A DNA stretch of 64,000 nt, from assembly GCA_036023115.1 (NCBI GenBank), contig JAYKKT010000056.1, positions 1,054,001 to 1,118,000 on the forward strand, read 5' to 3'. Source of the stretch: Brasenia schreberi. Its lineage: Eukaryota > Streptophyta > Magnoliopsida > Nymphaeales > Cabombaceae. Made by a program: the position numbers and the translations under genes. Below the pieces are notes generated by a model. That model did no database searches. It saw only the letters and a program-made list of their open reading frames with translations, and had not been told where the DNA came from. Of the stretch, positions 5,925 to 49,588 are shown one piece after another. Position 1 is the stretch's first letter, and every line of letters begins with the position of its first letter.

Positions 5925-6190
5925 TTAGGATGAGACTCAATTACAGATATAAGACAATCGGAGAGGAATGTCTAAGATGATTTGGATATATAGAGGCGAT
6001 AAATGAAGAAGGCATAAGAAACTAAACGTCAAACATATTAAAAAAGAGGAAAACTACAAGTGTTCATAGGAAACTATTAAAAGTCAATTTTTTTGGAGTG
6101 AACTACTAGTATAGAACACAATCAGCTCCATGGCATCAAAGAATTTATGTACCTTACCATGTCTAGTGTAGGAAAAGACTTGGTTTTTAC
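5925..6190 (+). mobile_element. Decayed 3' end of RTE-type LINE
   Basis: Translation gives a worn version of the family's C-terminal [10 protein letters not shown]...[14 protein letters not shown] region (5970-6070). The 3' end (6093-6178) follows: a TGGAGTGAACTACTAG counterpart of the family TGGGAGTTAACTGCTAA, then CAAAGAATTTATGTACC and a GTCTAGTGTAGGAAAAG counterpart of GTCTAGTATGGGAAAAG. The usual (TTG)n tail is replaced by TA repeats. Confidence 0.7.
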
Positions 6191-6204
6191 TTATATATAT
6201 ATAT

Positions 6205-6257
<53 letters not shown>

Positions 6258-6320
6258 CATATATATATATATATATGTATGTATATATATATATATATAC
6301 ATACATATATATATATATAC

Positions 6321-6351
<31 letters not shown>

Positions 6352-6432
6352 CATACATATACATATACAATATATATATGTATGTATATATATATATATA
6401 TATGTATGTATATATATATATATATATGTATG

Positions 6433-6472
<40 letters not shown>

Positions 6473-6512
6473 TGTATATATATACTGACAACCAAGCCTA
6501 TATATATATATA
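6191..6512. repeat. Compound (TA)n/(TATG/CATA)n microsatellite
   Basis: About 320 bases of TATA interrupted by regularly spaced TATGTATG / CATACATA blocks. It is self-complementary and produces long spurious Tyr/Ile ORFs on both strands. It lies exactly between two facing LINE tails. Confidence 0.95.
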
Positions 6513-6608
6513 ACAGTAAAAACCAAGTCCTTTCCTACACTAGACATGATAAGGTACATAAATTCTTTGATTCCTTGGAGCTCGATCGTGTTCTATATTG
6601 TCAGATTT
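6513..6608 (-). mobile_element. LINE 3' end, inverted relative to 5925-6190
   Basis: The reverse complement matches 6113-6187 closely: GTCTAGTGTAGGAAAGGACT and the AATTTATGTACCTTATCATG region both correspond. The two tails therefore face each other across the TA tract and form an inverted repeat with arms of roughly 80-90 bp. Confidence 0.85.
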
Positions 6609-14481: not shown

Positions 14482-17400
14482 GTAAGTTCTATATATGAAT
14501 TGTAATCACAAATATTTGGAGTTATAAATGTGCTTGCAACTGTGATTGCTGACATTAATGCCATTCTAAGCCATTGTGATGATTGCATTGTATCTGTCTC
14601 ATGAAGTGCCTGGACAAACTTCTGCTATTTCGGATCTTGATATAAGATGATTTGTTCCTGTTCTAGTTAGGTATCTCCAATGAATTGGATTGGTTTGAAT
14701 ATTGCACAGCACATCGCAAGTAAATGTCATCACCCCTTATGGTTTGTTGCACAGTATATAAAATAGACTATGGTAATGTGAACCTTTGTTGCAGTTCATA
14801 CACTTATAGTGGGAATCTTTTTGATTCCACTACTTGTAAAAGCAGCGTAAAAAAAATCCACATGCCAAGAAGAAAATCACAATATTTATCTTAACTTGCA
14901 CCCTTGGTACTCTTCAAGATGCCAAGGAGTAAGTAGCAATTGCTTCTGTTCAAAAGAGGAGACGAGGTGCTGGGGCTTGACTCTGTCTGATGAAGACTTC
15001 TATTCTTCATTGAATGTTACAGGGATTTCCACTCTGTGTGTAGATTTTTCATAACTCGAGTCTTATGCTTAAAATCCGATGCCAAGTGTACATAATGCAG
15101 GCTGCTGCGTTGCAATTGTTGGTTGTTCAGTGAACTTTATAGTTGGTGGTTGCTGATGCGCTTTCTTCTTAGTGCTATTAACAGGTTTTGCTAGTTGTTG
15201 TCTTCTTTCTTTTTCATAAAGAACAATAGCATGAATAACTAACATTGTCTCATTCTTTTGGGACATGCTGTGATCTAGATGGCATCTTTCATTGAAGATG
15301 AGGCCCTTGCATATTCCTTCTAGATGCTAATAGTACATTTTAGTCAGGATAGAGGACATGCAGCAAACAAAAGAAGTATATCTAGCACCTCTGGGATAAT
15401 GGTTAAGAATCAGTAGAACCAATATGTGAATATCTCTGATGCTTGTCTGGTGGATATCTAGGGAGGAAATATTAAAAATATACAGCAGAATCTACATCGG
15501 ATTGATTGGACTTTTTTGGCCTTCTGTTTTTCATGTTGCTGCTTCTTTTCTTCTTGTTCTTTCCTTCCAGAATTTTCAGGAAAGCTCCTAGATACATGAT
15601 GAACCTGGTGGTTCTAAATCTAAGGCATATTGATTCCTATAACTTTTTGGTTACTGGACCGGGCTTGATAAAGGGCGATGCAGCTGAAAAACTAGTGGTG
15701 CTTGAGGTCTTGTTTATGGATATACATACGTGTCTAAAGAATGGATCCTGGGAGAGGAAAAATTGTTCCTACTTGCTATATGTACAACAGACCAAGATAT
15801 TGGAACGCTAATTTTTTATTAAATATAATCCAATTTATGCAGTTGATTATACTAAAGGTTCTGCTACTAGCTGTGCAAAAACTGGATTTGACAAGGAGGC
15901 ACATTTTTAGCTACACTAGATAGCCTACAATTTATGCAAAATGATCATTGGTCCTTGGTATGTAGATTCTGTGGTTGCAAGCCACACGATAAGTTACAGT
16001 GGTGAGCTTTATAAGGTTGTTTCATATTTGGGTAGAGTCATATTGTTAAAGGAGTTGGTATTTACCAACCCCATCATAGATTGTTGAAGATGGTTTTATT
16101 CCTTTAGGTTGTTCTAGTTCTTTGAACTTCGAGTTGTATTTGTTGAAGAATACCAGAATTTACATGTTAGATTATTATTTTATGAGTCACTTAAGTAGGG
16201 GTAATCTTGTCTTGCAAGTTAGAATAGGTATAAAGTGAATTAGAGTAAGTTAGGGTTAATTGAAAAAGAAAGAAGTTAGCAGCCACAGAACCTAAGAAGA
16301 GTTGCATGTTGCCCAATGATGCTTCATTATGTACTTTGATGTTTTCTTCTTTGATAATATGAAATTCAATGCATCTTCAGTATGGTATTAGAGCGGGTTG
16401 CATGAATCAAAGGCGAAGGTGAGCTGTTGGAGAACGATAAGTGTGGAAGAGGCAGCAGGAGCAACCAACTAGATTTTTGCACCTTTTTTTCTATGAAAAC
16501 TTCACGTATGATAGCATTCAAGTTAGTTTAGAGTAACTTTTTGAAAGGAAAGATGGTTGATTGTCTATGCAGACTGATAGAAACGAATTCTTGATTATAA
16601 CTAATATGAAATTGAATAAAAAAACTACCTAGAATGGTCTAGGTCAGTTCTGTTGAAATTCAGAGTTGTGTTACAGAAGATTAAAACGAGAAATATGACT
16701 AATATTAAGGAGGAAAACCTGAGAGATTGAAGGAAGAAAATTACCAAAATGCCCCTAGTATTTCGGGCAAATATCTAAAAACATCAGAAATTATAAAACT
16801 AACACAAAGAACACTAGATATGCATATTCTTCAACACCCCCCTCAAGTTGGGAGTGAGATACTTCGAACTCCAAACTTGCCAAAAATCTTCATATATGTT
16901 TGCAACATTCTTCGTCTGTCTTCATCACTCATCTGATCTTCAACTTCTTTGACTGAAACATCTTCAACTTAGCTTTCCTAGCTAATCATCACAAGCAGGA
17001 TCTCTGATTGTAACATCAACTTAGCCTTCTCGGTTGTAATAATATAAACTCAGTCTTCCTGGCTGTAACAACATAAACTCAGTCTTCTTGGCTGTAACAA
17101 CAACAACTCAACCATCCTGGCTGTAACAACATCAACTTAGCTTTTCTGGCTGTAACAACAACAACTCAGCCTTCCTGGCTGTAACAACTTAGCCTTTCTG
17201 GTTGTAACAACATCAACTTAGCCTTCCTAGCTATAACAATATCAACTCAGCCTTCCTAGCTATAACAACAACAACTATAACAACAACTCAGTCATCCTTG
17301 CTGTAACAACATCATAAGCAACTACTTTGCCTGCAACACACATTTTAACAGTCCTCATAACTGCAAGCTTCACAAGAATCGATAGATTGGAGACATTCCA

Positions 17401-20400
17401 TCTAACCTGCTAACAACTCTACTTTGGTGCCCACACATGGCTACCTCTCTTTCTTACTTAATCCATCAAATTTTACTCTTTTATAGTATATACAATCTTC
17501 TGTACTCTTTTCCTGAATTTTCCAGTTCTCTTAAACATTTCCACTTCATCAAACACTTCATGTGCAGGTAAACTTCTCTTTTGAACATTTCATCAAACAC
17601 TTCATATGCATCATTCATCTGCTCACACGCTTTTCAACACAAGCTTTGTTTGAAGAAACTTGATGTCCCAATAGGGCTTCCACGCCAGTATTTTCATTGC
17701 AAACTTATGATTTTGGAAATTCCCACCAGGTTTGATTATCTCACCATTCGAATGTTCAATCCTAGGGCTCAACCTAACACCATGATCATACAACCAATCC
17801 TCCACTTGTTGAAGCTTAGAAGAGAATTCCTCCCTCTTTCTCAAGTCTTTCTACGCAGCATCAATATCCCATTTGCAATCAACCAGAGATGCTTTGACAT
17901 CCTTTATAGGGGCACTTGTCCTTTCCCTTAGTTGCTTTATAAGATTCAACTGTTCAGCAACAAACACATCAACAGAGAACATTCTAACTGGCATGAGATT
18001 CCCACCAATGCCACGATCACAGCCGTGGACTAAGAAAGGAACACGGCTTCTCTCTGTAATTCCTCTAAGGCATATCCACGATGAGTAACTGCTATTGCAT
18101 TGTCTCATGGCATTGAAGCCACTTATAAAGTGCTTTATCAGGTGCTTTCCATGTCTTAAACAAGCCATCTCAAACAATAGGTGCCTCGGTATTTCGCACT
18201 GCTGCGGGCAACAACCTGCATGGGCCACCAAGAATTCCTCCCTCTCTGAATCAGTCACAAAATCTTGATATTTATCATGAAGCTTATTTCTCATATCATA
18301 AAAATATGCCTCTACTGCATTTTTTTTTCTTTTTACTTTAGTTTCTTCCATGACCCAGTCCTGGAGAACCATTTCAAATTCCTTCTCCACAGACTTTTGT
18401 ACATCTGTGGCCACCATCACACCATAAACCATCTCTGAAACGGAGACATTTATCTTCTTCGCCTTGGCATCTGTATCCATTTGCTCAGCCTTGTCACCAG
18501 ATTCAGGAGTACCATTTGTCGAACCAAGTTTCCCATGAACTTTGGCATTATGATGAGCCCACTATATGCATAATCTCTTGAAAAAAAAATCTTTTCTCAT
18601 CACCAATCACACGATCTGGGACTAATCCGCCAACCTTGTCATTAAAGTCCTGCATAACCTTTTTGGAAATACGAATAGTGTAGTAATATGTAATGAGTGT
18701 GCAGCCACCAGTCACAATGAGTGTGCTGCAATACGAATAGTCCAATAAATTCAGCCACAAGCTTCTTAAAGTGCAATAAATGCCTCACTATCAATGCTGC
18801 AACACTGTACGTTACAACCTTAACTAATAAATGCAACCACCAGGATTTAGAAATTCTCCATTATTGCTCAAATAAATGTAGCCAACATTCCAATAAATGC
18901 AGCCACCAAACCCTCTTCCATGTGCAATAAAGGCAGCCTCATCTGCAAGCAGAGACTTCCTTTTAAATATGCAGCGCCATAAATCTCAGCACTAACGCCA
19001 CATTTGACTTTTTCATTTAGTGGCTTCCCTATAATGTTTATAGGATTTCTGGAGAGGACAATAAATTATGGCATGTGGTGTCACATGGATAAGGACAGTC
19101 GATTTCCTTTATGGTTCCTCTTCGAAAATACCAATCTCCAACAGCTTCAGGCAATCGTCTTGTTATGCAGTCTCGACGAATCTGAAGCAGACCATGTTTC
19201 TTGTAACTCACTCTGGCAATAGGTGAAACATGAATTCACAAAAAACTCCTCCAGTGCTGAATCCAGCAAGGGTCGCAATGCTATTAGCATGTCATCTCTA
19301 AAGCCTTGGAGAGAGATTATTTCTTTCGATGTACATGCAGTTGGATTCTGTTTGCAGCTTCTCCACTGTCCATGCAAATCAGCCGAAGGAGGAACTAGTA
19401 TATTATTAAATTGATATACATCATATGCATCATTCAAGAGGAAAATTGGCGTCTGAATAGGAACCAACTCATATTGTGGGAAAAAACACTGTGCTGGATA
19501 TTCTTGAACCTGGGTGCACTGTATTGGTAGATTTTTTTATCACCTCCTGAAGCATGACTACTCCTTAAAAAAATGACCTCATAGTATAAGAACCAGATAC
19601 ATCTTTTACATCAAGAAAAAATCCACCATCACTCAAGCATTTTACACTAGTGTGCTTCGGTAATAGCCTGGTAAAATCATCACAATGCAGGATCGCAGAT
19701 AGAGCTCTAGCAGAACAGCCTGAAAGTAAAGCTCTGTTATAAAACTCAGAATCTCCAGTAATAGGCCCTGATACCATGTTGAAATTTAGAGTTTTATTAC
19801 AGAAGATTAAAACGAAAAATATGACTAATATTAAGGAGGAAAACATGAGAGATTGAAGGAAGGGTTAGACCTCTCTTGTGAAAAGCAAGAGAGAGATTAT
19901 TACCTTATGCATGTGAAAAACCAGATTTAGGAAGTCTTGATTACCCACGATGTGAGAGGGATGATGCTCCTATGGCTGCATGGCTTATCAACTCTATGAT
20001 GCCCAATGTTAGACGATCATTCATTTACCTTGTGACAACCCATGAAATATGGGAGGCCGTGAGAGATGCATATTCAAGAAAGAAAAATATTGCGAAAGAA
20101 TATTAGCTTCTTGAGAAGATACAGAAGTGTAGGTAAGGACAGAGAAGAATCAGTGAATTCTATGTAGAAATGAGAAGTATGTGGAATGAATTGTCTTTCT
20201 TCACCATGATTCATTACAAAGAATGCGCAAGAGAGAGGGCAAGTGAATTTGAAAAAAGAAAAGTCTTTGATTTATTATGAGGAGTTTCTGATGAATATGA
20301 AAATGTAAAATAGCTTAATATGAAAAATATAAAATACAACATTCTAGTAAGTGAAGAGATGCCTACACTTGGTACTGTGTACTTGTTACTAATAAGAGAA

Positions 20401-23400
20401 AAGATAGGAAAAGTTTGGAGAGATTAGAGGTGACCAACATCGAGAAAACTACATTTATGAAAAGAGGGTACATCCCATCCATGAGAGGTAGGAGGGGGTC
20501 CCAGAGGCAGATGCCATGACTCCTTAGATGGACAAGACATGATGAGATGCAACCATTATGGGAAAGCTAAACGCACTAAGGAAAGGTGTTGGGAACTGAT
20601 AGGAAAACCAAACTATGTTAAAGATAAAACTATGATTACAAGAAATAAAACGACAGTACAAGTGGAGCAATTAATATGATTCTGAAGTGTTTGAAGGGAC
20701 TCAAAGGTAGACTTATAGAAAATCCTTCTTCTGCATCGATCTCTTCAGAAAGGATTCATGCAACCATGATTGCAACACTGGGTGAACAAGGAAGACCTAG
20801 CGGTAATATTTTTTATATTAATTCATTATCGCATATATATTGGATTATTGACTCAGGAGCTACAGAACACATGGTGAATTTTAAGGAGGGCTTGCCTGAT
20901 TATGTGGAATTGAATGATAAAGTTAAGATTGCAAACAATTCATTCATATCAGTAATTACAAGAGTAAAATTATGAACATCATTTGGAATACTTGATCTTG
21001 TTTTATATATACTGAGATCTCTATGAATCTTCTATTGATTATTGATTTATCGTGTAGATTGAATTATGCATTACATTTTTTTGCATCTTATTATGTATTT
21101 CAGGAACTAAGGATGATAAAGACCATTGGATATGGTAGGAGTGGGAGTGGAGGATTTTACACTTACGGGAGAAGAAGAGAAAACACATTAGCAAATATGG
21201 CATCAACACAGCATGAAGAAGAACTAATACTTTGGCATCATCGGTTGGGACACCCTCCAATTCAAAAACTTCACACTAGAATACCATAGTTGGCGAAATT
21301 TAAGAGTGACACTTGCATTTAATGTGAGGCATGTCAGTTAGGAAAGCATATTAGGTTTAGTTTCCCTAAAAGCATGTCAAGATCTCATGGTGTATTTGAT
21401 TTGATGCATTCACATGTATGGGGACCTTGCCTAGTTGCCTCTATTACTGGCCATAGATATTTTATCTTGTTTATTGATGATTACTCTCGCTTTACAACTG
21501 TTTACATGCTGAATTTCAGAGATGAAATTGCTACTATATTTCCATTATTTCATAGATTTGGTGAAAAAAATTTCAGCACAGGTTAAGGTTGTCCAATCAA
21601 ACAATAGGGGTGGGTATGCATAAGCCACCTTGAAAAACTACCTAGCAGCTCATGGGATTATACATAAACGTCCTGCACGTATACTCCACAACAGAAAGGA
21701 AGAATCAACATATTCTGGAGATGGCCAGAACACTAGTGATTGTTAGTTCAACCCCAAAATATCTATGGGGTGAGGTGGTTCTAACATCAGTATATCTAAT
21801 AAATTGGACGTCATTATCGTGTTTGGATGGAAAGGCACTCTTACACTTATTGTCTCCTAGTGAAAAATTCTTCAGTTTGAGTTCTAGGGTCTTTGGGTGT
21901 GTGTGTTTTATACATGTATCATGCCAATAGATGCTAATAGAGATAAGCTTGATCCTAGAGCTGTGAAATGTGTTTTGCTGGTTATTCTCCCTTTAAAAAG
22001 GGCTATAGATGCTATGATCCAACTACGAAAAAAAATTTGTATCTGAGATGTTACCTTCCATGAATGTATATATTACTATAGCAGTGAGAGGGAGACTAAA
22101 AACATAGCAAAACAAGAGGAAACACTATTGCCGATACTATATGAAGAAGATAAGGGAAGATGTCATGAGGAGGATAACAAAAATAACCCCCCCCCCCGCA
22201 AATGTGCGTATCCAATTAGTAATTACATTCAATCTTTTGGAGTGAATTCAAGAGATGTAAAGATTCTAAAAACTTGGGAAGAGGTCAACACATTTAGAGA
22301 ATAACAATATGGTGTATGCTTTGAAAAAGAACCAAACTTAGGTGATTGTGTCTCTACCTAAGGGGAGAGAATTCGTTAGATGTAAGTAAGGTATACACAG
22401 TGAATTATAAGCTCATAGGAGAAATTGATAGATATAAAGTAAGACTAGTGGTAAAAGGATATAGTCAATCTTATGGAATTACTATAATGAAACTTTCGCT
22501 CTTGTGGCAAAAATGACATCGATATGAGTATTGATAAGTCTAGCAGCAAATAAGGGATGAAAAATGTGGCAATTGGATGTTAATAATGCATAAAGAAAGC
22601 TCTATACATATTGAAACAGTCACTACGTGCTTAGTTTGAAAATTTTGGTGAAGGCATTATTAGCATTGATTACACGAGAAGTAAAAATGATCATACTCTA
22701 TTCTTTAAATTTGGAAATGGAATCTCTATATTAATCGTATATGTTGATGATATTGTAATAACTGGTGATGACATAGAAGAAATCAGCTACCTAAAGAAAA
22801 GACTTCATCAATTATTCGATTTAAAAGATCTTGGACAACTTCATTACTTTCTGAGAATTTTAGTCCTAAAGTCACAAAATGGTATATTCCTAACACAATA
22901 CAAATATGATTGACTTACTAAATGAAACAGGTACATTGGGATCAAAACCAAGTGAGATTCCCATGGACATTAATCACAAGTTGGGACTGGAAGGCAACAT
23001 AAAACCCAGTGGTGCTAAGAGATACTAGCAACTAGTAGGAAAGTTGATAATTTAACTATCACAAGACCAAATATAACCGATGCAGTTGGAATTCTCAGTA
23101 GATTTATGCATGCACCTAAGCAACAACATATGGATGCAGTCATTAAGATACTCCTATACTTGAAAAATACTCTTGGTAATGGCATTCTATATACCAAACA
23201 TGAACACACAGATCTAGAGTTGTATACATATGCTGATTGAGCAGGATCTATAGATAATAGGAAGTCCACAACTGGTTATATTGCTCTATTTGGAGAGAAA
23301 ACAATCTCTAGTGGCCAGATCGACTGCAAAAGCGAAGTATAGGGCAACAACACAAGGAACCAATGAAGGATTATGGCTTATTTCTCTACTTACAGAACTC

Positions 23401-26400
23401 CAACAACAAATCAAACTTTCAATATCCTTATATAGGGACAATAAGGCAACAATTCAAATTGCTACTAATCCAGTTTAGCATGAAAAAATAAAACACATAG
23501 AAGTAGACTGTCATTTTTTAAGAGAAAAGATTCAAACAAAACACTAAAGTGCAACATGTGAGATTTGAAAGTCAAATAACAGACATACTAACCAAAACAG
23601 TTCCAAAGGTCACATTAGACAGATTATGCATCAAGTTGGCAGTTTCAAACATCTTCCTCCCAACTTTAGGGGGAGTGTTGAAGGATACCAGAATTTATAC
23701 GTTACAATATTTTTTTTGTGTCACTTAAGTAGGGTAATTTTGTTTTTCAAGTTAGAACAGGTTAGTATAAAAGTGGATTAGAGTAAGTTATGGTTAATTG
23801 AAAAGAAAGAAGGTAGCAGCTGCAGAACCCAAGAAGGGCTGCACACTGCCCAATGATGATTCATTCTGTACTTTGATGTTTTCTTCTTCGATAATACGAA
23901 ATTCAATGCATCTTCAACAGTATTTTTGTGCTTCATATGATTTTTCTATGATTCCAAGTTTGTTGATGATACAAAATTTTGTTATGTACGCTCTTTCATC
24001 TCTATATTCACATATGAGAATGTTATACGTTAGGCAGTAGAACCTGTGAGCATGTACGTCTTCAAGAAACATGTTTCATCTCCCAAGTCTGATTGGAAGC
24101 TTGAAGCATACGACTTCCATCATGTGCTTCCAACATTTTGAAACTAAATAAGTTGTTTGTTTTGGCGTAGTGAACTAGGTTATTGTAGTAAAGTTTCATT
24201 AAGAATCTTGGCATCGAGCTAGTTCCTGAGTCATCTTTGAATAAAGAAGTTCATCGTACTAGTTGTTGGATTGTAGTAAAGTTTCATTAAGAGTCTTGAC
24301 AGTGGGCTAGTTCCTGAGTAATCTTTGAATAAAGAAGTTATTCTACTAGTTGTTAGATTTGTAAGCCGTGCACTCTAATTTGAAGTGTTCAGTGGAGGAT
24401 CATCAAGGAATTTGAGTTCTTTATTTTGATGTGTGGAGGCCAGCTCTAGTCTGTGTCTTCTGGTACAAGGTATCATGTCATAGTCATTGATGACTATTGT
24501 CACTTTATCTGGATACTTTTCATGAAATATGAGTTTGAATTCTTGGACATATTTGTGTAGGAGATATTATGTCATAATCATTGATGACTATCGTCACTGT
24601 ATCTGGGCACTTTTCATGAAGCATGGGTTTTCCTTCTCATTTAATTGTTTAGCATTACTTTGAGAAAAGTTGAGCTGTATATGCTAGTCAGAGATGAATA
24701 TATGGAGTTGAATCTTTGTACTGAAGGGGAAACCATACCCTTCACAGATTCCAAGAAGAAATCTGAAATGTCTATTTCATAGCTCATTGATATGAATTGC
24801 ATGTGCAGGGATGGAAATATACCCGTGTCATATATCAAGCAGTACCTTGTGCAAAAGCTTAATTTGAGACATGAGTCTGAGGTAATTGTTCTTTTCTTCA
24901 GATAAATAGCAGAAATCATCATATATTACTGCTTAGGGTCAACTTATTACTTTTTCAGACTCAACACCTTCTTATGATTATCAGTGCCATTGTTATTCGT
25001 TCTTCCTTGTCTATCACACTACCAGTGGAGTTGGGAATGATCACTTATCATCAGGAATGCACTTTTAATCATGAAATGCATGAAGATGAAAAGGACATAC
25101 ATTAGTAACTTAATTTTCTATACTTTCCCATGCAAATGCTTGTCTACATTTGTTCTCTTGATGTTCCGAGGCCATATGGTGGAAATTTGCTTCTGTTATC
25201 ACATCACAAACTGCCTTTTGTCAGTGTAAGAACATCCGGTCCAAGTAATGCCCTGTAATTGATGAGGTGTCTCGTTAGATGCAATCCTCTGCTGGATCCT
25301 GCTGGCCAATCTGCTTCTTGTGACTCCATTACTGAAAATTCTGGTGAACCCAATACCCCAAATTGGAACCTTCCCGTAATTCTATTAGGTCTTAATATGC
25401 ATAAATGTAAGCTTGTAGAAGGCATTGGACTCTCATAGAAAATGCATATTAACAATGTCATTTTGTTCATCTGCAAAATGGTATATGCTTACTGCACTTG
25501 GTGCCTCAATATAAACATATACTTACCGCAGGCTATATAGATTTCTTTGTTGGTTTGTTCGTTCTATACCTGTTGATTTGGGTAGTTCAAGATTCGTATT
25601 ATGATAGCCCATTTCAGTAAATGAGGCGTCTATATTGAGACAAATTCATGTAGTCTTGATTAAAAAACTCAACCTCACTAATGACAAATTCATGTAGTCT
25701 ATCTGAGATGTACTAGTGTAAACAAAGGCAATCCGTACAAAAAAGAAAGCAAGTAGCAACCACACACCACAGATGAGAGTTTTCTTCTTCAGTCAAAACC
25801 CAACGTATCTCCACCAGAAGGCATCGTCTCTGCAACTGCAGAGTCCGCAATGATGATATCATTGTTAGAAGGACTGCTGCCCGACACTGCCGCCACCTGC
25901 CGCTGCCACTTGCTGCCAGCTGCTGGGTCAGTTGTTGCAGCCAGCCAGCCAGCAGGCCAGCACCCAACGGCCAGCACACTAGCCATTGGGTGCTGGACCT
26001 CTTTCTTACTCTCCCTTCCTATTGTATTCTACCTTCCTTTGTCTATAATACCTCCTCTTTACTCTTGTAATATCAAGCCGTGGGGCTTTGCCTTGATAAT
26101 AAAGTGTTCTTTCTTGAAACTATTTATGTTGTGTAATTTAGTGCATAAGGCAAAATTGGATTGATTCTTGGTGAAGTGCTTAAGGCATTTTGTGTGGCTA
26201 TCGAGATCGGGTGAGGCTGATCTTAATTACATGGTATGAAAGCCTTGTCGAGGATGATTGTTCGAGAAAACGTGATCTTGGAAAGCGTATTAAGAAGGTT
26301 TTAATACAGTGGACTGTTTATCTCTTCAAGTAAGATATTTGTTGATTATATGTTTTGATAATGAAAGATAAAGAGTTTTGTTTCCGCCTAATAAACACCA

Positions 26401-29400
26401 ACTATAGGACATGGGCACAAACAACAACAACAACTAAGCCTTTTCCCATACTAGACGGGGTCAGCTACATGGATTCTTTGTTTTCACAGATCCCTATCGT
26501 GTGTCATGTTAGCAGTTAACTCCCAATAAGCTAGATCAATCTTTATTGTTTCTTTCCAACACTTTTGTGGTCATCCTCTACCTCTTTTAATACTTTACAA
26601 AATTAGTTTTTCTAACCTTCTTATAGGTTCTTCTTTTGATCTTCTTTCTATATGTCCAAACCATCTTAAACGATGTTCTCTCATTTTATCCTCTATTAAT
26701 GTCACTCCTAATTTGTTTCTAATAACCTCATTATGTATACAGTCTTTTCTTGTATGACCACTCATCCATCTCAACATCTTCATTTCTGTCATAGACATCT
26801 TTTGTACATGTTAATGATTAACTGCCCAACATTCAGAACCATAAAACATGGCAGGCATAATTACAACAACAACAACAACAACAACAACTAAGCCTTTTCC
26901 CATACTAGACAGGGTCGGCTACATGGATTCTTTGTTTCCACAGATCCCTATCATGTGCCATGTTAGCAGTTAACTCCCAATAAGCTAGATCATTCTTTAT
27001 TGTTTCTTTCCAACACTTTTGTGGTCGTCCTCTACCTCTTTTAATACTTTCCAAATTTAGTTTTTCTAACCTTCTTACAGGTTCTTCTTTTGATCTTCTT
27101 TCTATATGTCCAAACCATCTTAAACGATGTTCTCTCATTTTATCCTCTATTGGTGTCACTCCTAATTTGTTTCTAATAACCTCATTATATATATGGTCTT
27201 TTCTTGTATGACCACTCATCCATCTCAACATCTTCATTTCTGTCACAGATATCTTTTGTACATGTTGATGATTAACTGCCCAACACTCAGAACCATAAAA
27301 CATGGCAGGCTTAATTGCTGCTCTATAATATTTACCTTTTAACTTTAATGGTATCTTCTTATCACAAAGAATACCTGATGCTCCTCTCCATTTTAACCAA
27401 CCAGCATTAATTCTATGTGTAACATCTCCATCAATTCTTCTATCACTCTGAAAAATTGACCCTAGGTATTTAAAACTTTCCTTTTGGGGAATGCAATGTG
27501 TGCCAATTTTAATTTCCATGTCCTCTGAAGTAACCAAATGATTAAACTTACATTCCATATATTCTGTCTTTGTTCTACTAAGTCGGAGGCCTTTGCTTTC
27601 TAATGTTTCTCTCCATAGTTCCAATTTTCTATTAACTTTTTCCTTAGACTCCTCCACTAATACAATGTCATCTGCAAATAACATACAGCAAGGTACTTCA
27701 TCTTGAATATGTTTTGTTAACTCATCCATCACCATTATAAATAAGTATGGACTTAAAGTTGATCCTTGATATAACCCAATATTAACTTCAAAGAAGTCTG
27801 TCGTTCCTTCATGAGTCCTCACACATGTTTTTGCACCATCATACATGTCTCTTATAAGGTTAATATATGTCAATGGGATACCTCTTTTTTCCAAAGTTCT
27901 CTAAAGAACCTTGCTCGGTACCCTATCATAAGCTTTTTCTAGATCAATAAATATCATGTGAAGGTCTTTCTTTTTTGCTCTAAAATGTTCCATAAGACGT
28001 CTCAAAAGGTGAATCGCTTCAATAGTAGATCTGCCTGGCATGAATCCAAATTGGTTCTCTGTTGTACTTGATAGTTGTCTTAACCTACGTTCGATAATTC
28101 TTTCCTATAATTTCATAGTATGACTCATTAACTTGATGCCTCGATAATTCACACAATTTTGAATGTCTCTCTTGTTCTTATATATGGGTATAAGTGTACT
28201 TGCTCTCCATTCCTCGGGCATCTTTTGGTTTTTCCATATTTCATTAAATAGTCTTGTGAGCCAAGTGATTCCTATTTCTCCTAGTATTTTCCAAACTTCT
28301 ATAGGAATATTATCTGGTCCTAATTGCTGCTCTATAATATTTACCTTTTAACTTTAATGGTATCTTCTTATCACAAAGAATACGTGATGCTCTTCTCCAT
28401 TTTAACCAACCAGCATTAATTCTATGTGTAACATCTCCATCAATTCTTCCATCACTCTGAAAAATTGACCCTAGGTATTTAAAACTTTCCTTTTGGGGAA
28501 TGCAATGTGTGCCAATTTTAATTTTCATGTCCTCTGAAGTAACCAAATGATCAAACTTACATTCCATATATTCTATCTTTGTTCTACTAAGTCGGAGGCC
28601 TTTGCTTTCTAATGTTTCTCTCCATAGTTCCAATTTTCTATTAACTTTTTCCTTAGACTCCTCCACTAATACAATGTCATCTGCAAATAACATACACCAA
28701 GGTACTTCATCTTGAATATGTTTTGTTAACTCATCCATCACCATTATAAATAAGTATGTACTTAAAGTTGATCCTTGATATAACCCAATATTAACTTCAA
28801 AGAAGTCTGTCGTTCCTTCATGAGTCCTCACACATGTTTTTGCACCATCATACATGTCTCTTATAAGGTTAATATATGTCAATGGGATACCTCTTTTTTC
28901 CAAAGTTCTCCAAAGAACCTCCCTCGGTACCCTATCATAAGTTTTTTCTAGATCAATAAATATCATGTAAAGGTCTTTCTTTTTTGCTCTAAAATGTTCC
29001 ATAAGACGTCTCAAAAGGTGAATTGTTTCAATAGTAGATTTGCCTAGCATGAATCCAAATTGGTTCTCTGTTGTACTTGATACTTGTCTTAACCTATGTT
29101 CGATAATTCTTTCCTATAATTTCATAGTATGACTCATTAACTTAATACCTCGATAATTCACAATTTTGAATGTCTCCCTTGTTCTTATATATGGGTATAA
29201 GTGTACTTGCTCTCCATTCCTCGGGCATCTTTTGGTTTTTCCATATTTCATTAAATAGTCTTGTGAGCCAAGTGATTCCTATTTCTCCTAGTATTTTCCA
29301 AACTTCTATAGGAATATTATCTGGTCCTACCGATTTACCACCCTTCATATGTTTAAGAGCCTCTTTGACTTCATTCTTTTGAATACGTCGATAGAAATTA

Positions 29401-32400
29401 TGGTTTATATACTTTTCTGACTTGGCTAAATCTCCTAAGCTAATACTAACATCTTTATTTTCATTAAAAAGATTATAAAAATAGTTTTTCCATCTATTTC
29501 TTATATCATCGTTTGCCACTAAAAGTTTTTCATCCTCGTCTTTTATGCATCTAACATAAGTAAGATCTTTAGTTTTCTTATCTCTAGTCCTAGCTATCCT
29601 AAAAATATCTCTTTCACCTTATTTTGAGTTGAGTTTTTTTATATAAGTCCTCCCAAATCTTAGCTTTTGCTTCACTCACGGCCTTTTTCGCTTTCTTCTT
29701 TGCTTTCTTATAAACTTTTAAAGTTTCACTAGTTTTCTTGGCATAATGTAATTTGTAACATGCCCTCTTTGCCTTGATTTTATTTTGCACTACTTCACTC
29801 CACCACCAAGCTTCTTTTTGTGCCGGTACACCTCCCTTAGATACCCCTAACACATCTTTCGTCACTTTCCTAATATGTATAATCATATTGTTCCACATAT
29901 CAGAGGGTGTGCCAACATAATTCCAAACATCTCCTTGAAGGACATGGGCACAAACCATGAAAAATTATTTATATTTCAAGAAACTATGGGGTTATGTTAG
30001 CGGAACAAAAACCGAACCTTCAATTAATTTAAGTTTAGAACAAATGGAAGAATATGATGGAGGACATTGAACCGTTCTATGGATCCTTATGAACATTGTT
30101 AATGAGCATTTAAGAGACACTCTAACAGATTTTACAAATGCTAAAGAAGCATGAGATTATCTCAAAAGAAATAATATAAAGAGTGATATAGCTCACAATG
30201 GCCCTTGGAGATAAACTTATGACCTTAAGACAAGAAGATAAGGACATTAGTGAATTTTACATAGAATTTTCTAATATTTAGAATAAACTTTGTGGATATG
30301 AAAACAATATACATATTGTCTTGACATAAGGTAATTCGAATAAAATGAGGACTTTGTCCATCAGTTTCTTAAAAGTTTGAGGGAAGAATTCGAAGAAGTT
30401 AGAGTTAGTCTCATTCATAGAAAATCATTTCCTTTAAAAGAATAATATATTACCGATTTATAAATGACAAAAACCAGGCTAAAGGAAGCAAAAACTCAAA
30501 GAGACTCTTACTAGTTGCATCCAGACTAGGAGAAAACGTCGTGCCCTATCGACCTCCATATTTTAAGACTCATAGATAGCCTACTGTAAAGAATGAGGTA
30601 ATTTATTTTTATTGGAACTAGGTCATGTGTTTAAATTTTGTCCTAAATTAAAGAATAAAGTTGTTGTAGTCAAGAGAGAAGGAAAAGAAACTCTTGCTCT
30701 CAGTGATCTCTAAAACAAAATAAAGCAAAAGAACAGATGAAATGAAGCGCATCCATGGAGTAGTTTGTTCTACCAACTCTAACGGAACGGTAGGTACAAA
30801 ATCTTGGTTACTCGAATCTGGAGCTTCTTTTCATATGACGTGAAGAATTTTTTTAAGGAATTACACACAAAAGAAATATGATTCATGTGTTTACAGTCGA
30901 TGGAACTAAACTCAGTGTTAGTTTTAAAAATTAGTTTTATAAAATAGGAGATCTTCAAAATAAAAAAAAATAGTTTTAAAAATAAGTTTGGTTGTAATGT
31001 TAAATTTAAATCTTTTTCAGTATCTGACAATAATTATTTAGTCAGCTTCTCATCAAACGCTTGCATTATAAAGGATTGCCCAACGAAGAAGGTGATTGGA
31101 TATGGCCATAGAGGATTCTATGTAATGGACTATTTGCATGATGAAATCTTGGATAATGTAAAGTTTTATCTAAAGATGTTTTTTATGTCATAAAAGACAT
31201 GTCCATTTGAATGTTCAAAAATTGTATAGATGATATTCTATTGGAATTAAAAATGTTAGACTTTTTTTGTAAGGGTTGTGCTTTTAGAAAAATAAAATAT
31301 ACTTTGTTTTTTCAAAGAATGCTTATCTCAAGCAAACCTTTTGAAATAATCCACTCTAATGTTTGGAGTCTCGCCCCAATCTTCTCAAAAGAAAGATATC
31401 ATACTATGTTATTTTCATCAATGACTTTTCTAGATACACAAGGATGTATCTTTTGAAATCTAAGTGTTGAAAATTTTTATGATTTTTCATAACTTGATTA
31501 AAATCAATTTAATGTTAACATCAACGCAGTGTTGTTCGATGCATATCAGATCATGTATCATTTTAATTCACAATACATATCATATTGCACCGTATCATAA
31601 TTTAATACAAAAAATGTGGTAAAACTATAAAAAATTCAAAAAAACAAGAAAAAATATGATAATTGCAAAATTTTTATATAATATAAAAATATAGTACATA
31701 TTCATTATTCACCATTAAATAATTAAAAAAGAATTACATATTTTGAAGCAGAATCCTTAAAAAAAATATAACTTTCATAATTGAAAAAATATATTTATAC
31801 ATTGTAATCAGGATCATCAACTACATAATCTTCATCTTCTCCTTCTTAAAGATCCTCAACACCTTCTACTTGTACTTCAAAATAAAAATAAAAATCCTTG
31901 ATGATGTTATTGTTGTGCTCCTAAAATAATCCATGCAATGTCTTCTTCGGTTTGGAGTGTATTTGCTTCATTATCTTCCATAATCTACTCCTCTAATATA
32001 TCAAAATTATCCTAACTTATTGAACCAAATTGGGTTTTTTCCTATTTAACTTTTGTAATTATTTGCAAGAAGGAAAGATAAGTAATTAGTAAATAACATT
32101 AACAATTAAAGTTAAACAAAATATTGAATTGAATCTTTAAGTAGTAACTAATACAAGATTACCTCTGTCGGAGTCGTATGTTAAAACGGATGAAAACTAA
32201 GTCATTCAGTCGCTTAGGTTCCAACCTATTGCGCTTTTTTGTGTGGATGTGTTCAAAGACACTCCAATTCCTTTTAAAACCCATTGTACTACAGGTTTAG
32301 CTCATAACTCCTACTAAAAAATCTCTAAGGTTTGGGCAATAACTTCCAAACCTATTTCACCAAACATCTAATAGAAAAAGACAAATATCAAGGACTTAAT

Positions 32401-35400
32401 CCACAATAAATATAAGGTTTAAGAAACTTAAATATAAAGATAAATAATTTACCTAAGCGCATATTAGTGTGATTACGAATTGCTACAGGCAATTCCATCA
32501 AGTGAAGTGCATTATCATAGATCTTCGTCTCTTGATGAATAACATCTTCCCTATTCTTATTATGGACTAATTTGTATATACAATCAATGATACCTCGGTT
32601 TACCTCACCGTCCCTTTTAAAACTTGTTGAGTACCAGAATGTTAGGTTTAGGTAATAAGTTGTTGCATGAATAGGTTTATAAATTGTTTGTTCTGTTTGT
32701 TATATATAATATTCCACATAGACACATAATCCCTTTTTCTTTCATTAAAATTATTTTTAATGGCTTCTTTTACCCAATCCATGGCTTCATAAAGATAGCC
32801 CATAGATGGTTTCTCCTCACTATGAGTTAATCTCAAAACTTTAACTAAGGGACATATATTCCTCAATGGTCTTACACATGTATTCTAAAATATACGTATT
32901 TAAAATCTTATTTAACTTTCATTTTCTTCTATTTTGAGACAACTCTGTAAATTGTTATCACTCGTATGAGGAGAACATTCTCTTTAAGCCTTGCTTTTGT
33001 TTCACAATGCTATGTATAAATAAGAAATTAGTTTTACGAAGAAGCTTTGCACCATATGTATATATCCTTATCATATATAATACAAAAGCATGGTTGTAGA
33101 TAAATTTGGTGATATCTTGGCAACACTCAGTTGTTGCCTTTATCTCATTCATCTCAACAATATCTTCAAGAATGAGATCTAAACAATTGGTTAAACATGA
33201 TATATAATAAAAAGTCTCATAAGTATCTTATAACTCCTTTCCAGCTCCTTTATAGTTACTTGCATTATATGTAATAATTTGGACTATATTCTTTGGCCCA
33301 ACCTCTAATATCACCTTATCAAACTCTTGCCCTAGGACCATTATAATATGCATCTCTTCTGACACACCTAGAGATCTCAAAAACATAAGTTTTGTAGAAT
33401 AATAGATAATAAAGTTTATCAAAGTTCTTCCTCACCTATTTGTCCATCCATCTACCATGATAGTATATCTTGTCTCCAAACATTACTCTCTCAAAATTGA
33501 ATAATATTCTTACACTTTAAGGACAGTTTTATCTAATAGTTTGCCTCTTAACTTTTGATAAGAAAACATATTATACTATGAACCAATGTTTTGCATCTAT
33601 CTTTAAAATGAAAATTGTTTATTGCATTAAATAGAATGCATGCATCATAAAACCATCTACCCACTACAAGGTCTGCCTACTCATGTAATTGCTCCGAAGT
33701 CATAGGAGCACGAATTTGAAGTTGATCACCATGTGTAATGCTAGGAAGGGAAAATGATTCTATTAAGTTCTTCTACTCCTTCCTCTTCTACCACTTCCAC
33801 TTGCAACATCTATCACTTTCACTTACGACATCTTCAACAACTCTCTTTTCTGTGGTTGGTGGTTGAGAACTACTACTATCAACCTTTGTCCTACTATTAG
33901 AAGGAATACTATAACCCAATCCAACAACATCATCATCCTCTTCCTTAAACATTTCTAGATCATCCTTCTGTTATCTCCTCTCAACTATGCTATCAATCAT
34001 CTATAGACGTTATTTAATGGCTTCTGACAATTTTCTAATTTTGCTAGTGAAAGGAGCAACTTCTTTCGGTGATGTTTCAATTGTGAATTTCACCACTAAC
34101 TACCTTCTCACAAAACAAATATTTTATCTTCAATTTATTTTCCTCAATCGTTGTACCCCACTGCCATGCCGAATCATTGGATCGAGATTGAGAGTCAATA
34201 ACACCCCTTCTTGCCATCTTAATTAAACACTTCAATCCAAAAAAGTCTGAAAATAAAGCACTTTATAAATCCTCAATTTTCACATAAATCTCAAATAGAG
34301 TGTCTCCCGCATCACAAATATAATAAAAATCATATCCACGCACTTCATAACTTCATATTTTGTCATTCAAAAGAGAAAAAACGTAAATAACACCAAAAAA
34401 CAATAAATACAAAAGTAATTTAAAAACTCAAAAAGTATACCTAGAAAGCTGGTTGGGAGCCTTATACAGATGCTATAGAGCACTTTTTTTAGCCTTCAAC
34501 ACCAAGAATGGGGGAGCCACCGGAGGTACATTTGAGAGCCTTGAATAGAAGCTAGAAACCCACAAAAACGCGGATTTTTGTGAGGGTCCCAGTATGTATT
34601 GGTCGTATCATGCGATACAGCCTGTATCGCACAATATGACATGATATTTTCCTGTATATGATACATAAAGGTATATCTTATCGTGGAGCTTCATGATACA
34701 ATATGTATCATACCGTATCATACGATACGTATCGTACGATACGATGCAAATATGGATAACGCTGCATCAAAGTGTTTAGATCTAATTCTGATGGTGAATT
34801 TATTTCAAGAGATTTTGAAAACTATCTTAAAGAAAATAGGATAATTCATGAGACATCATGTACTAGGACTCCTCAGCAGTATGGTATTATTGAACTAAAG
34901 CATAGACACATAGTTGAAATTGCCCAAATCCTATTAATATATAATAATGTTTTAAAGAATCTTGAGGCTGAAGCCATTATGACTTCGGTTTTTCTTATAA
35001 ACATAGTTTTACAAAATGTCTCGCTCAAAGAGAAATTTTTGAAAGTTGTCTCTAATTACTCTTATCTTAGAATTTTTGGACGCAAATGTTTTGTAATAAG
35101 ATTGAGTGTGCATTCTTAGGATACGGTATAACAAAAAAGGGTATGAATGTTATGACCCTAAGAATGTTAAGCTTTATATGTCTTGGAATGTTTAGTTTCA
35201 TGAAAATGAATTTTACTATGGTAATGAAAACAATGACTCTAGTAATGATATAAGATATTCTTTCATGATTGATATTCTAGAAAACGAAGAACAAGAACGA
35301 GATAGGTTAACACCTGATAAGGATGTTCAAGAATCTAAACATATCATTTCTCCTTTTGAACGATATTATACTCGTAGATCGACTGAAACTCTCCCTAGAA

Positions 35401-38400
35401 TATTTACTAGAGAATCAAGACCTCTAGAGAAATTTGTTTCTTATGATACATTTTATTCTGCTCATAGAGTTGTGCTAACTACTTTGTCTACTTTTAAGGA
35501 ACTTAAAAACTTTAAAGAAGCCCAAATGAGGAGTTACAAGCCTTAAACAAAGCCCAAACATAGGAATTAGTAGAAAGACCTAACTCTAAGAAGCCTATAG
35601 GTTGTAGATGGGTTTATAAAATAAAAACAAAGAGTGATGAGATACTAGAAAGATATAAAGCGCGTTTAGTTGTCAAAAGATATACTAAAAAATATGGTAT
35701 AGACTATGATGAGACCTTTGCTCCTGTAGCCAAAATTACAACAATAAGAACCCTTATTACTATTAGTATTGTAAAGAATTAGAATGTTTTTCAAATGGAT
35801 GTCAAAAATACTTTCTTCAATGGTGTGTTAAAAAGACTTTATATGGTTTGAAATAGGCTCCTAAAGCATGATTTGATAGTTTAATGAGTTTATAATTAAC
35901 CTTGGTTTTCTTATGTGTTATGCTGATATTGCCTTATTTGTGAGAAGAAATACATAAGGTATTGTGAGAAGAAATACCTGCAAGTGATAATATCGGTATT
36001 CAGAACATTAAAGATGAGCTTCGTAAAGAAGTTGATATTAAGGATCTTGGCTTGTTGTATTATGTTTTTGGTATTGAAGTAACTCGTAATGATAAAGGTG
36101 TCTTTTTGTCACAAACAAAATTTGCTCGTGATATTGTTAATAGATCAAGATTATCTTATGACAAATTTATAGAAACTCCTAAAGTAATTGGCATAAAATG
36201 AGGCTTGGAGATGGTAACCACTTTAGGACTCCACTTCATATTGGCAAATGGTTGGTGGTTTAACCTATGTGACTATTACTTGACCTGATATTATGCATGA
36301 TGTACACACAATAAATTAATTTCAACATGCACCCACTATTATCTATATGAGTGTAGTAATGAGAATAGTCAGATATGTTAAACATCTTGTGAATAAAATC
36401 AATCTTATTGAATGAAAAATGGAACCAACTTACAGAATATGGCCGATTGGAGGCATTCCTCCAATCGGCCTAATCTCAGGAGACACACACACTGTAGCTG
36501 CCGCCTATTCCACTTTTCTTCTCATACTTTCTGCCTAAACCCTAATTAGCTATTTATACTTTATTCTAACTTAATTTCCTAATCTATCCCTACTAAGTAT
36601 TAACTATTTCTAAGATAACATAGGACTCAAATTAACAAAATAACATGAGACATGACGTTCTTTTACATGACTCGACTCTCAACACATGACACAACGACTC
36701 CCTTAACACTCCCCCTCAAGTTGGGTGGAAAATGTTGATGGCACCCAACTTGGATAAGGTCTCCTTTAATAGTTTGCTGGTAGTGGCTTTAGTTAAAAAA
36801 TCAGCCCTCTGTTTGGTAGAATGAACATACTCCAGCTGGAATTCTTTATTAGATATCTTCTCCCGGATGAAGTGACAGTCAATTTCTATATGCTTGGTCC
36901 TTTCATGATATACAGGATTAGATGCCATTTGAATTGCTGCACTGCTGTCACAATATAAAGGTATAGGATGGTTAAGTGAGTAACCTAATTCAGTTATCAA
37001 TGAAGATATCTATTTTCCTTCACACATGGCTTGTGCTATAGCTCTGTATTCAGCTTCTGCCGTAGATCTTGCAACCACAATTTGTTTTTTGCTTTTCCAA
37101 GATATAATATTACCCCCAAGTAAAGTAACATAGCCAGTAGTTGACTTTTTGTCATCATAAGAACTTGCCCAGTCAGCATCAGAATAGAGTTCAATGTCCA
37201 AATTTGATGATTTCGAATAAAGTAAACCCATTCCTGAAGTTGATTTGAGGTATCGAAGAATTCTATACACCGCATCCATCTGATTTTTTGTTGGTGAGTG
37301 CATATATCTGCTCGCAATCCCAACTGCATACGCTATGTCTGGTCGAGTAATGGTTAAATATATGAGCTTACCCACTAGCTTCTGATATTTATGGATGTCT
37401 TTGAACTCTTCACTGTCTCCGTTAAAAAATTTCTGGTTTACCTCCCTCCATTGGAATGTCACTGTGTTTACATTCAATCATTTGAATTTCTTCAAGGAAA
37501 TCCATAAGGTATTTTCGCTGAGTCAAGTAGATACCTTTGTCAGAGTAAAGAACTTCTATGCCTAAGAAATAATGAAGCCTGCCCAGATCCTTAATATCAA
37601 ATAGTCTATGAAGGCTCATTTTCAACTTTGATATTTCTTCAAGGTCATTTCCTGTAACAATAATATCATCAACATAGACGGCAAGAATAGATATTTTTGT
37701 CCCTTTCTTGAAGAATATTGTATGATCGTTGAGACTTCTACTGTATCACATACTACACACTACTTTACTGAATTTATCAAACCAAGCTCTTGGAGACTGC
37801 TTCAACCCATATATAGCTTTCTTGAGTTTACATACTCTATGGGAAGATGAAAAATTTCTGACCATTCCTGAAGGGAGTTCCATATATACTTCTTCATTTA
37901 AGTCTCCCTGTATGACATCCAATTGCCATAGATTCCATCCCAAGTTTGCTACCATACTTAGAAGTATTCTGATTGATGTAAGTTTAGCCATAGGTGCAAA
38001 TGTCTCTGTATAATCAATGCCGTATGACTGACTATATCCTTTAGCAACCAATCTGACTTTATATCTCTCCACCGTTCCATCTGCCTTATATTTAATAGTA
38101 AATACCTATTTGCATCCTACAGTATTCCTGTCAGAAGGCAACTGTGTAATGATCCATGCATTGTTTTTTTCCAATGCTTTCAATTCTTCTTCAATTGCTG
38201 CTTTCCATAAGGGGCACTTGATTGCTTCTTCAAACTTCGAAGGAATCTTGTGTTTTTCAGCATTCATGATGAAGGTTTGATAACTCTGAGAAGTGTTGGC
38301 ATATGAAACATAATTAGAAATTGGATATCGTACACCTGTACGCTTACCTTTACGAAGAGCAATAGGAATCTCAAGGTCACTCTCCACTTGCACTTGAGGA

Positions 38401-48300: not shown

Positions 48301-49588
48301 AAGAACAAAAGAGACATTAAAAATTGTGTGAATTATCGAGGTATCAAATTAATGAGCCATACTATGAAGTTGTGGAAAAGAATTATTGAACGTAGGTTAA
48401 GTATCAAGTACAACAGAGAACCAATTTGGATTCATGTAGGCAGATCTACTATTGAAGCAATTCACCTTTTGAGACATCTTATGAAACATTTTAGAGTAAA
48501 AAAGAAAGACCTTCACATATATTTATTGATCTAGAAAATGCTTATGATAGGGTACCGAGGGAGGTTCTTTAGATAACTTTGAAAAAAGGAGGTATCCCAT
48601 TGACATACATTAACCTTATAAGAGACATGTATGATGGTGCAAAAACATGTGTGAGGACTCATGAAGGAATGACAGATTTCTTTGAAGTTAATATTAGGTT
48701 ACATCAAGGATCAACTTTAAGTTCATACTTATTTATAATGGTGATAAATGAGTTAACAAAACATATTCAAAATGAAGTACCTTGGTGTATGTTATTTACA
48801 GATGACATTATACTAGTGGAGGAGTCTAAGGTAAAAGTTAATAGAAAATTGGAACTATGGAGAGAAACATTAGAAAGCAAAGGCCTTTGACTTAGTAGAA
48901 CAAAGACAAAATATATGGAATGTAAGTTTAATTGTTTGGTTACATCAGAGGACATAGAAATTAAAATTGGCACACATTGCACCTCAAAAAGAAAGTTTTA
49001 AATACCTAGGGTCAAATTTTCAAAGTGATGGAAGAATTGATTGAGATGGTACGCATAGAATTAATGCTGGTTGATGAGAGGAGCATCAGGTATTCTTTGT
49101 GATAGGAAGATACCATTAAAGTTAAAAGGTAAATATTATAGAGGAACAATTAGGCCTGCCATGTTTTATGGTTTTGAGTGTTGGGCAATTAACCATCAAC
49201 ATATACAAAAGATGTCTTGTGACATAAATAAAGATGTTAAGATGGATGAGTAGTTATACACGAAAAGACCGTATACATAATGAGGTTATTAGAAACAAAT
49301 TAAGAGGTACTAATAGAGGATAAAATGAGAGAATATTGTTTAAGATGGTTTGGACATATAGAAAGAAGATAAAAAGAAGAACCTATAAGAAGGTATGAAA
49401 AACTAAACTTTGAAAGTATTAAAAGAGCTAGAGGACGACCACATAGTGTTGGAAAGAAAAAATAAAGAATGATCTACCCTATTGTGAGTTAGCTGCTAAT
49501 ATGCAAAGAATCCATGTAGCCAACTCCGTCTAGTATGAGAAAAGGCTTAGTTGTTGTTGTTGTTGTTTATTTATCTATTCATTTTAAA
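45399..49588 (+). mobile_element. Full-length RTE LINE (LINE-C) with 16-bp TSD, broken by an inverted LINE
   Basis: ATCTATTCATTTTAAA flanks it at 45399-45414 and 49573-49588. The 5' region (45415-45807) contains GCCCGGATAAAGGAGGAGGG and two ~85-bp near-repeats (45625-45800). The ORF begins with APE-endonuclease sequence GTT..VRIGSWN (45808-45828). It is interrupted, resumes at 46829 with ETKWVGEKAKEIEDT (reading through shifts), CLGGDLNGYVG and ITYKSGLLQTQIDY, then linker and RT ([12 protein letters not shown] at about 48790), and ends GTCTAGTATGAGAAAAGGCT plus (TTG)n. Removing the ~990-bp insert leaves about 3.2 kb, the normal RTE length. Many stops; the FADD catalytic motif reads FTDD. Confidence 0.92.
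45829..46828 (-). mobile_element. Inverted, 5'-truncated RTE LINE inside LINE-C
   Basis: The left end is a (GTT)n tail and the complement of GTCTAGTATGGGAAAAGGC. Reverse-strand translation gives [20 protein letters not shown] and, at the right end, [17 protein letters not shown]. It forms a ~950-bp inverted repeat with 48607-49567. About 25 codons of LINE-C between GSWN and ETKW are missing at the site. Confidence 0.9.

Follow-up and report, generated by a model that had tools for sequence, protein, structure and literature searches.

A probable Ty1/copia-type long terminal repeat retrotransposon carrying pieces of three host genes in Brasenia schreberi

Bs1, a long terminal repeat (LTR) element of maize, contains three transductions from three host genes, which make up a chimeric gene for which transcription and translation are reported (PMC13317346), and the pieces that it captured are exons only (PMC4717578). 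Capture of several genes by one LTR element has few documented precedents among the source passages available: apart from Bs1, two terminal-repeat retrotransposons in miniature (TRIMs) were found in one survey, where all but two of 30 gene-carrying TRIMs have two or more copies (PMC4717578). In the portion available of a maize survey, 425 LTR elements with gene fragments are recorded, none of which, under the conditions of that survey, carries more than one standard gene (PMC2774510). For LTR-mediated retroposition a mechanism of template switching at microsimilarities has been proposed, in which the mRNA and the RNA of the LTR element share a particle (Tan et al. 2016, as described in PMC5408686), and multiple switches are considered theoretically possible (PMC5408686); template switching has likewise been proposed for fused elements (PMC1950507), and abnormal template switching is described in a 2026 review (PMC13317346). 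The present analysis concerns a stretch of 64,000 nucleotides of the water-shield Brasenia schreberi (the window; contig JAYKKT010000056.1, positions 1,054,001 to 1,118,000 of the forward strand), which holds a decayed, minus-strand LTR element of 3.2 kb at 16651-19862, lying in the gag of an older Copia element. It is proposed, with a probability of roughly 85%, that this is a non-autonomous Ty1/copia-type LTR retrotransposon in which gag-pol has been replaced by reverse-transcribed pieces of host mRNAs, namely those of a pectin acetylesterase (PAE), an HSP70-15-like chaperone and mitochondrial EF-Ts.

Element architecture

The terminal direct repeats of the element (16651-16736 and 19777-19862) are identical at 81 of 86 positions (94%). 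The five differing sites amount to a Jukes-Cantor distance of 0.06, which would correspond to roughly 2 million years at a rate assumed for rice, with a wide error. Read along the minus strand, the right repeat terminates in ...TTTCAACA and is followed by the primer-binding site (PBS) TGGTATCAGGGCC, presumably a match to tRNA-Met, and the left LTR reads TGTTGAAG...CAACA (16836-16651) with ACTTGAGGGGGG directly before it. The PBS after the 5' LTR and the polypurine tract (PPT) before the 3' LTR are on the same strand and each adjoins its LTR. The structural features are as follows.

16651-16836, minus strand: 3' LTR, complete, 186 bp, with TG...CA ends, assigned from its sequence and the repeat match with 19777-19862
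16825-16879, minus strand: Copia-derived 3' end of the interior with the beginning of the LTR, which shares 80% identity over 56 columns with the PPT zone of the surrounding Copia (23632-23687)
16837-16844, minus strand: PPT GAGGGGGG, adjoining the 3' LTR, assigned from its sequence
17012-17276, minus strand: 29-bp tandem array of about nine copies, matched by none of the captured genes
19764-19776, minus strand: PBS TGGTATCAGGGCC, assigned from its sequence
19777-19862, minus strand: 5' LTR, truncated to the PBS-proximal 86 of 186 bp, assigned from the repeat match

The zone shared with the surrounding Copia spans the boundary of interior and LTR, with the final 43 bp on the interior side and the first 12 bases on the LTR side, and a comparison of the whole LTRs scores about 4 standard deviations above 200 base shuffles. 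The surrounding Copia itself is not the direct donor of the LTRs: although its PPT zone and LTR start are homologous to those of the element, it differs in having gag-pol remnants and longer LTRs of about 240 bp. The element is classified, judging from its sequence, as a non-autonomous Ty1/copia-type derivative nested in an older copia.

Along the minus strand the order is 5' LTR, PBS, PAE, HSP70 part a, EF-Ts, HSP70 part b, the 29-bp array, the Copia-derived end with the PPT, and the 3' LTR. The three genes account for 1426 bp of the 2940-bp interior, and the unassigned stretches include about 530 bp separating PAE from HSP70, some 500 bp from HSP70 to the array and about 130 bp from the array to the Copia-derived end. 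A Pfam scan of the interior (16837-19776), translated in six frames, gave no gag or pol match up to an E of 5, and the six other families that it listed all remain under their cut-offs. An earlier note, made from the sequence alone, had described a reverse-strand LTR element with a PBS and a PPT, free of gag and pol and extending over 16651-19862. This description holds, with the correction that the span has one full LTR and a truncated 5' LTR.

The LTRs of TRIMs measure about 100-250 bp, and the 186-bp LTR and the absence of a detected gag or pol are TRIM-like traits. The element is nevertheless not filed as a TRIM, as its 3.2 kb compare with 1,172-1,449 bp for the gene-carrying TRIMs in the passages available (PMC4717578). 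Between PBS and PPT it carries pieces of PAE, HSP70 and EF-Ts without intron-sized gaps, and in this resembles the Bs1-like multi-gene-capturing LTR elements, which are marked by exon-only pieces of two or more unrelated host genes; the term denotes a kind of element and not a sequence family.

Pieces of three host genes

The gene pieces and the features at their junctions are given below.

19060-19738, minus strand: PAE fragment, 19123-19738 by Pfam and the extension to about 19060 by eye
18231-18525, minus strand: HSP70-15-like fragment, part a, by protein search and alignment to homologues
18231-18245, minus strand: 15-bp direct repeat AGAGGGAGGAATTCT, copy 1, at the junction of HSP70 part a and EF-Ts
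18169-18230, minus strand: 62 nt before the EF-Ts ATG, assigned by position
17833-18168, minus strand: mitochondrial EF-Ts fragment, Met1 to LRKR, 112 codons, by protein search
17823-17837, minus strand: 15-bp direct repeat AGAGGGAGGAATTCT, copy 2, at the junction of EF-Ts and HSP70 part b
17779-17837, minus strand: HSP70-15-like fragment, part b, by continuity with part a in homologues
17851-18480, minus strand: chimeric HSP70/EF-Ts open frame of 209 codons, from the list of open reading frames and its translation
17571-17627, minus strand: weak PPR-repeat-like stretch of 19 residues (Pfam PPR_2, E 0.084, 13.4 bits against a cut-off of 30)

The PAE fragment is identified by Pfam (the protein searches covered HSP70/EF-Ts and the tail), with matches to PF03283 at E 1.5e-28 and 4.8e-20 on two open reading frames and at E 1.3e-37 when the sequence is read through with X at stops. 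It covers profile positions 148-351 of 355, split over two frames (148-204 and 187-351), and the underlying DNA is contiguous; frame breaks are present and no intron-sized gap is. In a third frame, a C-terminus like that of plant PAE proteins presumably extends the homology as far as about 19060, as judged by eye. Citrus PAE genes have 11-12 introns and are described as similar to those of Arabidopsis, with 10-12 (PMC7764809). The lack of an intron-sized gap over half of the protein together with the 11-12 introns of Citrus therefore indicates an origin from mRNA. The homology begins about 25 nt past the PBS, at 19738, close to, though not exactly at, the PBS, where the earlier note had placed it.

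The HSP70 fragment is of the HSP70-14/15 type (best E 4.1e-34, 73% identity over the aligned part) and comprises only about 113 residues from the middle of the gene. The search returned 374 proteins at E <= 0.001, of which the best 120 all carry PF00012 and are 58-78% identical over the aligned part. An EF-Ts insert of 393 bp, made up of 62 nt before the ATG and about 112 codons, breaks into the HSP70 sequence, which resumes after it. The best EF-Ts match is a protein of Nymphaea thermarum (E 8.6e-28, 56% over Met1 to LRKR), followed among EF-Ts entries by Victoria cruziana; the best 120 of the 330 proteins in this search are a mixture of EF-Ts and short HSP70 entries. These two water lilies are also the sole sources of EF-Ts proteins that start with MACLR, as the element does, among those fetched. 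The matches make a host close to Nymphaeales likely, although the identity would be too low for a gene of Nymphaea or Victoria itself unless the copy is old. The EF-Ts piece has its start codon and ends early on the 3' side, with about the last 70% of the protein missing, and the 62 nt before the ATG are probably its 5' untranslated region (UTR). Neither HSP70 nor EF-Ts has an intron-sized gap relative to the homologous proteins, and all three gene pieces are in the sense orientation of the element. The earlier proposal of intronless, sense-oriented pieces of PAE, an HSP70-15/HSP110-type chaperone and mitochondrial EF-Ts is hence corroborated by Pfam and the protein searches.

The two HSP70 parts belong together: with EF-Ts removed, they align ungapped over the join in 145 of the 145 proteins hit (240 proteins being listed by the HSP70 and EF-Ts searches), and in all 120 of the listed proteins of the HSP70 search. 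The two copies of AGAGGGAGGAATTCT are 408 bp apart, a multiple of three, and are in frame. At the other end of the insert, LRKR is followed by G in 84 of 84 EF-Ts proteins where both motifs were detected. The parental EF-Ts should therefore read AGG GGN at this point, with GGN in place of the GAG of HSP70 in the element, and AGAGGG would constitute a microhomology of about 6 nt at the 3' junction of the EF-Ts insert. No poly(A) is found at the 3' end of EF-Ts, where no A-run above 3 nt lies nearby, and no fragment has an A-run above 5 nt in the interval that extends from 20 nt upstream to 80 nt downstream of its 3' end.

The frame of the sandwich is open over 18561-17851 (236 codons from stop to stop). 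It ends at an in-frame TAG (17853-17851) in place of which the aligned homologues have Gln; past the TAG the frame runs on to a stop at 17625-17623. The 209-codon fusion of two genes seen by the earlier note thus exists as a frame, and its simple order gives way to HSP70-EF-Ts-HSP70. In searches of the PDB the chimeric frame matches yeast SSE1 at E 3.1e-6 (residues 7-82) and, weakly, bacterial EF-Ts at E 0.038 (residues 176-207); seven further rows, besides three for SSE1 and one for EF-Ts, are taken as chance. The retention of an in-frame sandwich was considered as a sign of selection and rejected, in that chance is estimated to yield the two junction phases and an open 62-nt leader in a few percent of cases and a nonsense codon is now present. 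The open frame is not taken as evidence of function.

PPR is a possible, unproven fourth gene after HSP70; a protein search around this stretch gave 13 candidates, all with E above 10. Neither 17623-17796 nor 18548-18760 found a match in the PDB. The weak Pfam matches to rpo30_N (poxvirus), DUF6806, ERG2_Sigma1R, HBS1_N and GIP1_N, together with three further ones on the plus strand, do not reach the cut-offs and are taken as chance.

Origin of the mosaic and its insertion

It is proposed that the RNA of the element kept the sequences needed in cis (LTR, PBS and PPT) and borrowed the proteins of a relative. Within the virus-like particle the reverse transcriptase would have jumped, during minus-strand synthesis, from the element RNA to co-packaged cellular mRNAs and back. 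It may have left HSP70 at the microhomology of about 6 nt (AGAGGG) and followed the EF-Ts mRNA until close to the 5' end of that mRNA; from there it would have gone back to HSP70 on a second template, resuming 15 nt behind the point of exit. The 15-bp repeat implies that the point of return had already been copied once, which makes a second packaged RNA a natural template. In this order of events, which is itself conjectural, the captures would have occurred in at least two rounds with that of EF-Ts nested in an earlier one. The element would then have been inserted into the older Copia and have decayed through frame breaks, the nonsense codon and the truncation of its 5' LTR; today it is probably without function. 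That gene pieces of mRNA origin stand in place of the internal region of an LTR element, as the earlier note had supposed, is supported by the LTRs, PBS and PPT, the sense orientation, the lack of introns and the Copia-homologous 3' end.

The odds are about even that EF-Ts represents a nested capture at the RNA level, in which the enzyme switched away from an RNA already bearing HSP70, copied the EF-Ts mRNA to its capped end and returned 15 nt behind on a second packaged copy. Such an event would have placed an exon-only domain inside an existing frame, with the frame kept and with a short duplication that mimics a target-site duplication (TSD).

The surrounding element is as follows.

16141-23919, plus strand: older Copia hosting the element in its gag, with LTRs at 16141-16379 and 23676-23919 that are 86% identical

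This Copia is flanked by a 5-bp TSD, GTATT, as read from the flanks, and contains remnants of RVT_2, Pol_BBD and gag_pre-integrs in a decayed gag-pol. Its gag breaks off after WSRSV at 16649 and resumes beyond the element from 19863, in agreement with an insertion into gag, which is uninterrupted in relatives at 40869-40048 of the window and in locus L007 on contig C10. The relative in L007 has an 18-residue stretch tandemly duplicated in its gag (L007:6028-6160).

Several points weigh against the proposal. With a single complete LTR and without a clear TSD, insertion by an integrase is conjectural: of the left flank, the final 4, 5 and 6 nt are all absent from the first 138 bp of the right flank, and the flank pair AGTTC / GGTTA matches at 3 of 5 positions. 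About half of the interior has no gene assignment. The putative microhomology and 5' UTR are deduced from conservation. The mosaic has been observed at this one locus, and its independent mobility is unproven; eight 10-kb stretches of the assembly gave no match to the element at E 1e-5, which at 80 kb is too little to weigh for an assembly with at least one 9-Mb contig.

The truncation of the 5' LTR may add a further step to the proposed history, in that an incomplete reverse transcript, an unfinished cDNA, was joined to the target without integrase. This is a tentative suggestion and rather unlikely. What is missing is precisely the distal end, as the absent 100 bp are the outer part (U3) and hence the last-made portion of the 5' LTR, and bringing the flanks together yields an almost uninterrupted gag without a clear TSD; a later deletion over U3 and the flank would, however, look identical. 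When the joined flanks are compared with the L007 target, shortened by one tandem copy, the gag frame is restored about equally by removing 2, 5 or 8 bp, and a 5-bp TSD with two changes is therefore still compatible with the data.

An origin of the mosaic from separate retrocopies of the three genes, each produced by a long interspersed nuclear element (LINE) and landed in an LTR element or between two LTR fragments, is very improbable. The lack of introns would be accounted for, and the 15-bp repeat around EF-Ts has a length that is usual for the TSDs of LINEs. Typical LINE products, however, show the opposite pattern to the EF-Ts piece, which has its start codon and is truncated at the 3' side. 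A-runs near the 3' end of every fragment are at most 5 nt, every fragment follows the orientation of the element, the interval from PBS to PPT has almost no leader, and HSP70 is present as only about 113 mid-gene residues. The structure of the EF-Ts piece (start codon, 3' truncation, no poly(A)) fits better with template switching to an mRNA and back than with LINE retroposition, and the HSP70-EF-Ts-HSP70 sandwich argues for template switching more directly than the simple fusion of the earlier note. An origin at the DNA level, for example from repair filler or ectopic recombination within an LTR element, is just as improbable, for although end-joining repair also leaves microhomology and short duplications and the 5' LTR ends irregularly, introns would usually be expected where PAE, HSP70 and EF-Ts have no intron-sized gaps (parental introns being presumed in these intervals of HSP70 and EF-Ts), and random orientation where all three are sense.

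The window contains further repeats. Copies of an element with a reverse transcriptase (PF00078) at 26420-29943 and 45829-49567 are repeated, partly inverted and 84-98% identical, and also occur on contig C10 (L007). A second Copia with gag and pol remnants lies on the minus strand at 36845-40869. An imperfect palindrome at 6110-6597, which over 492 columns matches its reverse complement at 87% identity, is possibly a foldback element, and a direct duplication of about 2.7 kb (31527-34161 and 61390-64000, 78% identical) extends past the end of the window. Elsewhere in the assembly, positions 1-10000 of contigs C1, C2, C4 and C5 (L002, L003, L005 and L006) have a GC content of 0.61-0.66 against 0.33-0.44 in the other four contigs sampled, and are perhaps contaminants.

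Comparison with known gene-capturing elements

No report of this element was found in the literature searched, which included few subscription papers. The case comes from an early-branching flowering plant, and its preserved junction, where a 15-bp duplication encloses a nested piece of mRNA that starts upstream of the ATG, informs how the enzyme switches templates. If the nested capture is true, it would provide LTR elements with a route to build proteins of interleaved domains and would leave a signature that can be searched for; other copies, should they share the junction, would allow the captures to be dated and ordered.

Bs1 retains part of its own gag-derived frame. Like the Brasenia element it combines three unrelated host-gene pieces in one LTR element, and, as portrayed in the source passages available, it differs in its genes and plant lineage and in that its chimera is transcribed and translated, whereas the element here has no detected gag and a broken frame (PMC13317346; PMC4717578). 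Microsimilarity template switching, as set out in the available part of PMC5408686, is the same mechanism as proposed here, and that part gives no example of a nested capture. The gene-carrying TRIMs measure 1,172-1,449 bp and possess both LTRs along with 5-bp TSDs, in contrast to the 3.2 kb and one broken LTR of the present element (PMC4717578). Among them the soybean TRIM GmaRetroS15 is likewise short and coding-incompetent and contains exon-only fragments of three host genes (PMC4717578). Bs1 and GmaRetroS15 are thus precedents for the three-gene capture that the earlier note had considered unusual, though the maize survey, under its conditions, has no such case among its 425 gene-carrying elements (PMC2774510). 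Compared with GmaRetroS15 as it is described there, only the Brasenia element has one captured mRNA lying within another (PMC4717578). Overall, it adds one more example to the shuffling of genes by LTR elements, a process that is known but seldom reported, and its nested junction is unusually clear.

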